Source of the DNA: an uncultured Bacilli bacterium
GTDB lineage: Bacteria > Bacillota_I > Bacilli_A > RF39 > UBA660
Direction of reading: 5' to 3'
Assembly (NCBI GenBank): GCA_944371305.1
Contig: CALVXM010000011.1
Coordinates: forward strand, 1 to 38,053
DNA length: 38,053 nucleotides
Shown here: piece by piece, positions 34,478 to 37,166 of the stretch
How the letters are laid out: the number at the start of each line of letters is the position of its first letter
How positions within the stretch are numbered: position 1 is the stretch's first letter
Made by a program: the position numbers and the translations under genes
The notes under the pieces: model-generated
What the model saw: the letters and a program-made list of their open reading frames with translations, nothing else
Told to the model about the DNA's origin: nothing
Database searches by the model: none

Positions 34478-34505
34478 AAAAATTAGTTTTTTACAACTAA
34501 TTTTT
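34478..34505 (-). terminator. Terminator overlapping the stop of metK
   Basis: AAAAATTAGTT pairs with AACTAATTTTT around six bases, followed by TTGATATT on the minus strand. The stop codon (34504-34506) begins the stem. Confidence 0.8.
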
Positions 34506-35589
34506 ACAAATCAATGATTTGTTCCCAAGGTAGATTACTATCTCCAAAATGACCATAACTAGCTAAATTATAATAGATTGGTCTTAATAAATCTAATTCT
34601 TTAATTATATTATCAACACTGAAATTAAAGTTATTTTTAACATAATCATTTATTTTTTCAAGACTTTTTTTGTTAGTATTGAATGTTTCAATATTAATGC
34701 TGATAGGCAATTCCTTTCCGATAGCATAAGATAATGCAACTTCACATTTATCACAAAATTTATGCGCGACAATGTTTTTAGCAACATACCTAGCATAATA
34801 AGCGGCACTACGGTCTACTTTAGAAGGATCTTTACTACTAAAGCAACCACCACCAACTCTACCAACACCACCATAAGTATCGATGACTATCTTTCTTCCA
34901 GTAGTTCCACTATCACCAAATGGTCCTCCCACTATAAAAGAGCCACTTGTATTAATCAATATCTTAGTATTTATCATCAATTCTTTAGGTATTACTTCAT
35001 CGATAACTTTTTCTTTTATATATTTTTTCAATTCTTCTTGACTAACTTCTTTTTTGTGTTGTGAGGAAACAATTATTGTATCAATCCTTACAATTTTATC
35101 ATCATCATATTCTACAGTAACTTGAGCTTTACCATCCGGCATTAAAATAGAATTAGCATTACTTTTTCGTACTTCAGCTAACTGTTTAGTCAATTTATTA
35201 GCTAATAAAATAGGTAAAGGCATGAATTCGTCTGTTTCACAAGTTGCATAACCAAACATAATCCCTTGATCACCTGCACATATTTTATCTTTATTAACAG
35301 CTTTGTTTATTTCATTAGATTGTTCACTTACCTTAACCAATACTTCAAATTCCTCGTTATAACCAATATCTTTAAGCACTTCTTTAGCAATTTTTGCATA
35401 ATCTAATTTAGCTTTAGTACTAGCTTCACCATATATTAAAACAAAATTATCTTTAATCGTAGCTTCAACAGCCATATGACTATTTTTATCTACTGTTAAT
35501 GCTTCATCTAGTATTTTATCGCTAATTTTATCACATATTTTATCTGGGTGTCCTTCGGTTACTGATTCACTTGTTATTAATTTTTTCAT
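34504..35589 (-). CDS. metK: S-adenosylmethionine synthetase
   Basis: Makes SAM from methionine and ATP. Characteristic motifs are SVTEGHPDKICDKISD near the N-terminus, CAGDQGIMFGYA in the first third, GGPFGDSGTTGRKIVIDTYG and KDPSKVDRSAAYYARYVAKN in the middle and late parts. At 361 aa it is shorter than the usual 380-400, and the phosphate loop reads GGCFSSKDP where most enzymes have GGAFSGKDP. The catalytic Lys and Asp positions are kept, so it should be active. It is controlled by the SAM-riboswitch-like leader at 35616-35726. GGAGGT precedes the ATG. Confidence 0.96.
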   Translation of the reverse strand: MKKLITSESVTEGHPDKICDKISDKILDEALTVDKNSHMAVEATIKDNFVLIYGEASTKAKLDYAKIAKEVLKDIGYNEEFEVLVKVSEQSNEINKAVNKDKICAGDQGIMFGYATCETDEFMPLPILLANKLTKQLAEVRKSNANSILMPDGKAQVTVEYDDDKIVRIDTIIVSSQHKKEVSQEELKKYIKEKVIDEVIPKELMINTKILINTSGSFIVGGPFGDSGTTGRKIVIDTYGGVGRVGGGCFSSKDPSKVDRSAAYYARYVAKNIVAHKFCDKCEVALSYAIGKELPISINIETFNTNKKSLEKINDYVKNNFNFSVDNIIKELDLLRPIYYNLASYGHFGDSNLPWEQIIDL

Positions 35590-35615
35590 TTAAATTACCT
35601 CCATTACATTATATG

Positions 35616-35642
35616 AAAAAAACTCTATGAAAGAGTTTTTTT
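35616..35642 (-). terminator. Riboswitch-controlled terminator before metK
   Basis: An 11-bp perfect stem with a five-base loop and U-run, 27 bases upstream of the metK start. Its loop and part of its stem (CTTTCAT) are complementary to the closing strand of the aptamer, which gives the antiterminator. Confidence 0.85.
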
Positions 35643-35726
35643 CTTTCATCGTTATTAGCTTTACCACCTAACCTAATAGGTTGGTATGAGTTCATTGAGC
35701 TAATCCTCTCCCTCATTCTTGATAAA
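35616..35726 (-). promoter_or_regulatory. SAM-I-like (S-box) riboswitch with terminator, P4 apparently missing
   Basis: Read on the minus strand. P1 is TTTATC (35726-35721) with GATGAA (35650-35645). A second helix pairs ATTAGCT (35704-35698) with AGCTAAT (35660-35654). P3 is AACCT/AGGTT. S-box blocks are recognisable: ATCAAGA, GAGGGA-like, CTC-AATGAA-CTC in place of CCC-GATGAAA-CCC, CCAACC, and AGGTGGTAA. No P4 hairpin lies before P1 closes. The 3' strand of P1 (ATGAAAG, 35649-35643) can instead pair with CTTTCAT (35633-35627) in the terminator AAAAAAACTCT/AGAGTTTTTTT (35616-35642). SAM binding should therefore end transcription of metK. A TATAAT abuts P1, so the true promoter is unclear. 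Confidence 0.8.
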
Positions 35727-35747
35727 ATTATATTCAATTTTTAAATA

Positions 35748-37166
35748 TTAGTTAACAATTTCACCATCCATACTCCATGTTTTAACACTAGTTATCTTTA
35801 CATTAACAATTTTTCCTAAATATTTACTATCAGCTTTAACATTAACTAATTTCATAGTATCAGTATAACCTTTTAAATAATCTTTCTTTTTTGAACTATA
35901 ATCTTCTAATAACACCGGTACTATTTTATTTAAATATTTATCATTATTTTCTTTAGAGTATTTATTCACTAATTCATTTAATTTTTGTAATCTATTTTCC
36001 TTGATATCTAAAGAAACATCATCTTGCATTTTACTAGCAGGAGTCCCGATTCGTGGTGAGAAGATAAAAGTGAATGCACCATCGTATTTACACTTATCAA
36101 CTACATCTAATGTATCTTTAAAATCTTCCTCTGTTTCATTTGGAAAACCAACAATAATATCAGTCGTAATAGAAACGTTAGGTATTTTTTCTTTTAATTT
36201 ATCAAATAAATTTAAATATTTTTCTTTTGTATAACGTCTACCCATTAACTTTAATATTTTATTAGATCCAGACTGTAATGGCAAATGAATATAAGGCATA
36301 ATATTATCGTATTTACTAATAATATCAATCATATTATCGTCAAAATCCCAAGGATGACTAGTTACAAACCTAACACGATTAATTTTAGTTTTAGCCACAT
36401 CTTCCAATAAATTAGCCATATTATAATCAATATCTAAATCCTTACCATAAGCATTAACATTTTGTCCTAATAATGTTACTTCTTGATAACCATTTTTAAT
36501 TAAATCTTCGACTTCTTTTATTATATACTTAGGTAATCTACTTCTTTGTTTACCTCTTGTATAAGGTACAATACAATAAGTACAAAACTTATCACATCCA
36601 TACATAATATTGACCCAAGCTTTATATTTACTATCTCTTTTAACCGGAATATTTTCAATTACATCCCCTTCACAAGAAAACACTTCGATTTCTTGTTTTT
36701 TATTAGTATAAGCTTTTTCGATAATATTAGGTAAATTAACAATATTATGAGTTCCAAAAACAAAATCAATCCATTTATATTTTTTCATTATTTCATCGAC
36801 AATAACTTCTTCTTGAGCCATACACCCACCAAAACCAACCATTATATTTTTAGTATAACTTAAATGTTTAATTCTTCCTAATAAACCGAATACTTTGTTA
36901 TGAGCATTTTCTCTTATAGCACAAGTATTTAAAATAATTAAATCGGCTTCTTCTAAAATATCTGTCTTAGCATAACCCATATCAGATAATATAGCACTTA
37001 TGTTTTCAGAATCATGTTCATTCATCTGACAACCATAAGTTTTAATAAAATATTTTTTATTTTTTCCTAAATTTTTTTGATTGTCATTTAATTTATAATC
37101 ATCAGTTTTAATTAAAACTTTATTATTAGTTCTTTTCCTTGCTTCAACTAAATTAGGTATATGCAT
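35748..37166 (-). CDS. miaB: tRNA-2-methylthio-N6-dimethylallyladenosine synthase MiaB
   Basis: A radical-SAM enzyme that adds a methylthio group to position 37 of tRNAs reading U-starting codons. The N-terminal methylthiotransferase domain has TYGCQMNEHDSE (Cys46), NTCAIRENAHNKVFG and GFGGCMAQEE, which bind one iron-sulfur cluster. The radical-SAM motif is CDKFCTYCIVPYTRGKQRSR. A TRAM domain closes the protein (about 405-472). Length 472 aa is normal with a short N-terminal extension. It consumes SAM and lies directly upstream of metK, so read-through from its promoter (37189-37217) may feed the metK leader. Confidence 0.95.
   Translation of the reverse strand: MHIPNLVEARKRTNNKVLIKTDDYKLNDNQKNLGKNKKYFIKTYGCQMNEHDSENISAILSDMGYAKTDILEEADLIILNTCAIRENAHNKVFGLLGRIKHLSYTKNIMVGFGGCMAQEEVIVDEIMKKYKWIDFVFGTHNIVNLPNIIEKAYTNKKQEIEVFSCEGDVIENIPVKRDSKYKAWVNIMYGCDKFCTYCIVPYTRGKQRSRLPKYIIKEVEDLIKNGYQEVTLLGQNVNAYGKDLDIDYNMANLLEDVAKTKINRVRFVTSHPWDFDDNMIDIISKYDNIMPYIHLPLQSGSNKILKLMGRRYTKEKYLNLFDKLKEKIPNVSITTDIIVGFPNETEEDFKDTLDVVDKCKYDGAFTFIFSPRIGTPASKMQDDVSLDIKENRLQKLNELVNKYSKENNDKYLNKIVPVLLEDYSSKKKDYLKGYTDTMKLVNVKADSKYLGKIVNVKITSVKTWSMDGEIVN

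Follow-up and report, generated by a model that had tools for sequence, protein, structure and literature searches.

Organization of the metK leader

The window, which is the whole stretch of 38,053 nucleotides analysed here, carries metK, whose product synthesizes S-adenosylmethionine (SAM), on its minus strand, and the element under study lies in the leader between this gene and miaB. The locus is composed of the following parts.

34504..35589 (-), metK, methionine adenosyltransferase (TIGR01034, 490.3 bits against a cut-off of 309.4; three Pfam MetK domains)
35602-35598 (-), GGAGG, ribosome-binding site of metK
35643..35728 (-), P4-less SAM-I aptamer (RF00162, 52.9 bits; R1, a model built from P4-less sequences that include the window's own, 86.7 bits)
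35748..37166 (-), miaB, the gene upstream of the aptamer (TIGR01574, 558.6 bits; open reading frame)

The metK product has 361 amino acids, and its start lies 53 bases 3' of the aptamer; on the other side, P1 begins about 20 bases after the miaB stop. Together, the aptamer and terminator occupy about 35615-35728, so the interval 35616-35726 given in a sequence-only reading of this DNA was correct within 2 bases. No convincing promoter for the metK leader was found in the miaB-metK leader region. The best -10-like box, TATAAT at 35732-35727, was rejected as a promoter: it overlaps P1, would start the transcript too late and is absent from related leaders. Transcription of metK may come from read-through of miaB or from a promoter within miaB. 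A search for plasmid copies of the leader returned none.

Identification as a SAM-I aptamer

The sequence-only reading described a SAM-I-like aptamer on metK and proposed searches with the SAM-I, SAM-IV and SAM-I/IV covariance models. The SAM-I model RF00162 aligns to 35728..35643 (-) along its positions 1-108 (window E-value 1.5e-9), and the score of 52.9 bits exceed the curated gathering score of 44.4 bits; with a metK recognized by TIGR01034 downstream, the assignment to SAM-I holds. A search of a 601-base piece gave the identical match, and RF00162 matches nowhere else in the 1.14-Mb genome. The SAM-IV and SAM-I/IV models, RF00634 and RF01725, matched nothing in the genome, even with the threshold relaxed to E 10. 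The bases reported to be highly conserved in SAM-I, namely G11, A12, C44, A45, C47, G56, U57, G58, A6, U7, A87 and U88 (PMC3764141), are invariant or almost invariant in 95 P4-less sequences; the ligand-pocket bases of P1, J1/2 and P3 are invariant or at least 90% conserved there. Folded alone, the aptamer is only moderately better than shuffled sequences (z -1.97).

Single position numbers follow the T. tengcongensis structure, in a mapping of our own that we take to hold for the window aptamer. Its parts are listed below.

35721..35728 (-), 5' strand of P1, AUUUUAUC (covariation helix 1; MFE fold)
35686..35716 (-), P2a, kink-turn and P2b overall
35716-35712 with 35690-35686 (-), P2a, AUGAG/CUCAU (98.9% of cells paired)
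35711-35709 and 35696-35691 (-), kink-turn, GGA..AAUGAA (tandem G.A/A.G)
35708-35706 with 35699-35697 (-), P2b, GAG/CUC (100% of cells paired)
35700..35704 (-), pseudoknot strand AUUAG in the P2b loop (covaries with 35658-35654)
35685-35677 with 35670-35663 (35663..35685) (-), P3, ACC-AA-CCU..AGG-U-GGU, including the ligand-pocket CAACC and GGUG
35654..35658 (-), pseudoknot strand CUAAU in J3/4 (four core pairs and a fifth A-U pair)
35651..35659 (-), junction pair 64-85, G 35659 with C 35651 (paired in 91/95)
35651..35653 (-), AAC, the only bases from the extended pseudoknot strand to P1; the expected P4 site
35643..35650 (-), 3' strand of P1, GAUGAAAG, also used by the antiterminator (covariation; MFE fold)

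In this aptamer J1/2 is AAGA, and J3/4 is AAAG followed by the pseudoknot strand CUAAU.

Absence of P4

The order in canonical SAM-I is pseudoknot strand (65-68), P4 (69-82), 83-85 and P1. In the window, the pseudoknot strand CUAA(U) is separated from the P1 strand GAUGAAAG by (U)AAC alone. Since the pseudoknot strand runs straight into (U)AAC and P1, P4 is gone and its surroundings are kept. The initial claim that AAC leaves no room for P4 is confirmed by the alignment, in which 17 RF00162 model positions of the P4 region correspond to one base. Among the P4-less sequences, the distance from the four core pseudoknot pairs to P1 is 2-4 bases in all 95, which rules out a shifted or alternative P4 for want of space. 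A P4 hairpin in the core is used to tell SAM-I from SAM-IV (PMC7270179); no such hairpin is found here, and the element is therefore classed as a P4-less variant rather than as canonical SAM-I.

Covariation and the junction pair 64-85

To the alignment of 95 distinct P4-less aptamers from the family and class (A1), we applied the pairing scheme of the known SAM-I fold. Standard pairs occupy 94.4% of the cells, compared with 80.2% in shuffles, 424 cells are changed on both sides, compared with 126, and double changes are found at 22 of the 29 pairs. Because the sequences are related, these shuffle counts are not probabilities; slid versions of the structure, which keep the relatedness, reach only 29-44% paired (maximum 44.3%). 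The covariation among relatives that the sequence-only reading had called for is thus present, and P1, P2, the kink-turn, P3 and the pseudoknot are all kept in the 95 sequences. That reading had also pointed to a compensating change from GGG/CCC to GAG/CUC, which lies in P2b and proved to be real: the column pair 22/32 is G-C in 57 of the 95 sequences, A-U in 37 and U-A in one. The outer P3 pair is C-G in 65 and G-C in 30, and the tandem pairs of the kink-turn are G.A in 88/95 and A.G in 92/95.

The pseudoknot, unnamed in the earlier reading, is the best-supported tertiary feature of the predicted structure. Its four core pairs are formed in 95, 93, 91 and 85 of the 95 sequences (95.8% of cells), and each of them is changed on both sides. 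The combinations of P2 loop and J3/4 strand across relatives include AUUAG/CUAAU, GUUAG/CUAAC, CUAG/CUAG and CAAG/CUUG, and in the window's subgroup a fifth pair is A-U in 14/23 and G-C in 6/23. Pairing of the window's P3 loop, UAUUAG, with CUAAUA was considered and rejected, since it is the P2 loop, and not the P3 loops, that covaries with this strand. The P3 loop has six bases, and no conserved partner for it was seen.

Regarding the junction, the pair 64-85 was predicted for SAM-I (PMC2258182) and lies within the A85-U64-A24 triple (PMC9580860). Among the P4-less sequences it is paired in 91/95 (G-C 64, G-U 17, U-A 4, C-G 3, A-U 3), whereas 32 P4-bearing sequences have U-A in 24, A-U in seven and C-A in one. 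Counted over 99 P4-less sequences, 68 have G-C and 16 have G-U, compared with none of the 32 with P4. This change accompanies the loss of P4 in most comparisons; however, the association is not significant because the independent losses are too few. The G-C pair was accordingly rejected as a necessary compensation for the loss of P4, and four P4-less sequences keep U-A.

Expression platform

Downstream of P3, the 3' strand of P1 is shared between the aptamer and a predicted antiterminator.

35642..35649 (-), 5' strand of the antiterminator, AUGAAAGA
35627..35634 (-), 3' strand of the antiterminator, UCUUUCAU, within the 5' arm and loop of the terminator
35615..35643 (-), terminator hairpin, GAAAAAAACUCU-UUCAU-AGAGUUUUUUUC, with the U-run inside the 3' arm (fold -13.5 kcal/mol)

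Complementarity between the 3' strand of P1 and the terminator had been noticed from the sequence; the pairing is clear, although its length is 8 bp (AUGAAAGA/UCUUUCAU) and not seven. Without constraints, the leader folds at -31.2 kcal/mol into P1, P2, P3 and a hairpin of 12 bp that runs out into the U-run; the fold with the antiterminator enforced has -28.8 kcal/mol. The terminator stem is A/U-rich with a core of 4 bp, and a consensus terminator scan did not flag the hairpin at 35615..35643. In 97 P4-less leaders, the 3' strand of P1 pairs with its own downstream region at a mean of -8.2 kcal/mol, compared with -5.5 kcal/mol for the corresponding regions of leaders that differ in P1. The own region is the better partner in 87/97, in agreement with the clear terminator/antiterminator platform first described, and 96/97 leaders have four or more consecutive U within 70 bases. 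The predicted terminator/antiterminator pairing is thus conserved, and the element would act as the usual OFF switch by transcription attenuation.

Comparison with other SAM riboswitches

The window element shares with SAM-I, or S-box (RF00162; T. tengcongensis 2GIS), the P1 helix, kink-turn P2, P3, the pseudoknot and the pocket bases, as well as the metK context and control by a terminator. It differs in having no P4, in the 2-4 bases from the core pseudoknot to P1, in a pair 64-85 that is mostly G-C rather than U-A among P4-less sequences, and in the fifth pseudoknot pair of its subgroup.

We considered whether the element instead belongs to SAM-IV or SAM-I/IV, or truly bridges to them, with the absence of P4 as a class property. 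Like the window element, SAM-IV has the SAM core and no P4; in addition, it carries P5 and the second pseudoknot, PK-2, and its P2 contains a 4-nt turn of another kind (PMC6890682). Our pattern scan for P4-less elements also picks up some SAM-IV-like actinobacterial sequences, two of which score best as RF00162. However, P5, PK-2 and the SAM-IV turn are not seen in the window element: the terminator/antiterminator lies directly 3' of P1 where P5 would follow, the P2 internal loop is the SAM-I kink-turn with its G.A/A.G pairs, and the six-base P3 loop offers no conserved partner. The SAM-I/IV variant has the superfamily core in common, but its P2 has no internal loop (PMC2864571) and its P4 helix is present (PMC6890682), both opposite to the window element. 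Taken with the failure of RF00634 and RF01725 to match, these features make all of these readings very improbable. The suggestion that the element stands between SAM-I and SAM-IV is therefore not upheld, since the kink-turn and pseudoknot are of the SAM-I type and the P5/PK-2 module is absent; the absence of P4 is by itself no bridge between classes.

Distribution and evolution

RF00162 has a match in 10 of the 18 genomes of the genus, the window's included, and all ten matches are 84-89 nt long and without P4; nine leaders are of the window type and one (G002) is of another type. An eleventh genome (G001) has a metK whose P4-less leader escapes RF00162 but is found by the tailored P4-less model with 68.0 bits. 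In this leader (L257:1359-1445, +), P2 is weakened (AUGAAAAAGAGG..CUUAAGUGAACUCAU) while the pseudoknot and terminator are intact, and its aptamer begins directly at the miaB stop codon. Apart from this case, the expectation that standard models could miss the variant is not borne out, as RF00162 has a match in 80 of the 291 family genomes and the tailored P4-less model in 81.

Measured from the GGUGNN motif of P3 to the end of P1, distances have a bimodal distribution, with 16-20 bases in P4-less elements and 27-38 where a P4 hairpin is evident. None falls at 23-26, and the two values of 22 come from matches truncated or shifted at contig ends. P4-less elements are also present in other families of the class. 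The pattern scan of named genomes returned at least 117 stretches, most of them clearly SAM riboswitches by sequence, and 16 of 19 loci checked score above the RF00162 cut-off. Since the pattern demanded G at position 64, the scan is uninformative on that base. The matches listed include Anaerococcus tetradius, Acholeplasma oculi, Absicoccus, Solobacterium, Fusibacter and Ruminococcus, along with Erysipelotrichaceae and many uncultured Clostridia and Bacilli. Judged from these sequences, P4-less SAM-I is a common variant in many gut Firmicutes and relatives. We found no published description of it in a search mainly of openly readable papers. The variant is apparently undescribed so far, a status that is provisional also because such sequences are already gathered by the Rfam model.

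At least five changes between presence and absence of P4 are required on a tree built from 79 MetK proteins, two of them forced by well-supported branches. P4-less leaders fall into two large groups, of 23 MetKs (including the window's) and of 27 with a MetK of about 340 amino acids, and three single cases. On this tree the predicted P4 state has changed more than once, and metK lies downstream of the aptamer throughout the window's subgroup.

The reduced genome of 1.14 Mb, the weakened P2 of G001 and the seven of 18 genus genomes, most of them incomplete, that have neither metK nor the riboswitch would suit a SAM-I relic in decay, without function and in the course of losing its helices. Such decay is highly unlikely, as the covariation is strong across MetK proteins differing by up to about 36%, the ligand-pocket bases are invariant and the antiterminator pairing is kept.

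Proposed mechanism and significance

The element is very probably a P4-less SAM-I (S-box) riboswitch in which binding of SAM would lead to termination before metK. The sequence, structure, covariation, gene context and absence of P4 are what the analysis establishes. We infer SAM binding, termination and the direction of regulation as follows. P4 would have been cleanly removed, leaving P1, the kinked P2, P3 and the pseudoknot between the P2 loop and J3/4. When SAM is plentiful, it would be bound between P1 and P3 and P1 would form; the terminator at 35643-35615 could then fold, and transcription would stop before metK. When SAM is scarce, the 3' strand of P1 would pair with the 5' half of the terminator as an antiterminator, and metK would be transcribed. 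Less firmly, the pseudoknot, with five pairs in the subgroup, and the G-C pair 64-85 may have replaced P4 in stacking under P1. P4 makes no contact with SAM in the known structure, the pocket bases are kept and metK, the classic target of SAM feedback, lies downstream; a working aptamer for SAH or another analogue instead of SAM is thus highly improbable, although helix loss and a changed junction pair could alter the pocket.

The published view of the SAM-I aptamer is that of a four-way junction, with SAM as the driver of coaxial P1-P4 stacking, a step treated as part of the switch (see the summary in PMC4971091). A natural and widespread P4-less form suggests that P1-P4 stacking and the P4 criterion are not general requirements, and its recurrence implies that P4 is not essential. 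It is about as likely as not that these riboswitches form a widespread architectural subclass, stable in its own right, in which SAM control would operate without the P1-P4 stack and with the pseudoknot and G-C 64-85 as the platform of P1. The P4-less riboswitch is a variation on a known one and no new regulatory principle. It would be useful for testing models of SAM-driven P1-P4 stacking, and with a length of about 84-89 nt it provides a minimal SAM-I aptamer for work on structure and folding.

Other genes and contigs with P4-less elements

P4-less elements were also observed beside other genes. A small Cys-containing protein of 84-101 amino acids, with no Pfam or NCBIfam match, is encoded directly 3' of a P4-less aptamer on L040, L056, L057, L064 and L092. 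P4-less SAM-I-like elements are also present on about 30 contigs that IMG/VR lists as viral, including L266, L271, L272, L281, L297, L306 and L353; they may lie in phage or in host flanks. Finally, in at least 13 genomes a compact (about 260 amino acids), divergent MetK-like protein lies behind a P4-less SAM-I riboswitch.

L002:627-1409 (-), compact MetK-like protein

The protein is also encoded on L050, L051, L055, L059, L063, L066, L068, L071, L077, L081, L099, L104 and L121. It matches only the Pfam MetK N-domain (38.5 bits), and TIGR01034 gives 45 against a cut-off of 309. Its full length matches the phage family phrog_1569 ("unknown function") with 242 bits, and 24 phage records contain proteins with 60-80% identity to it, in several of them next to DNA methyltransferase genes.
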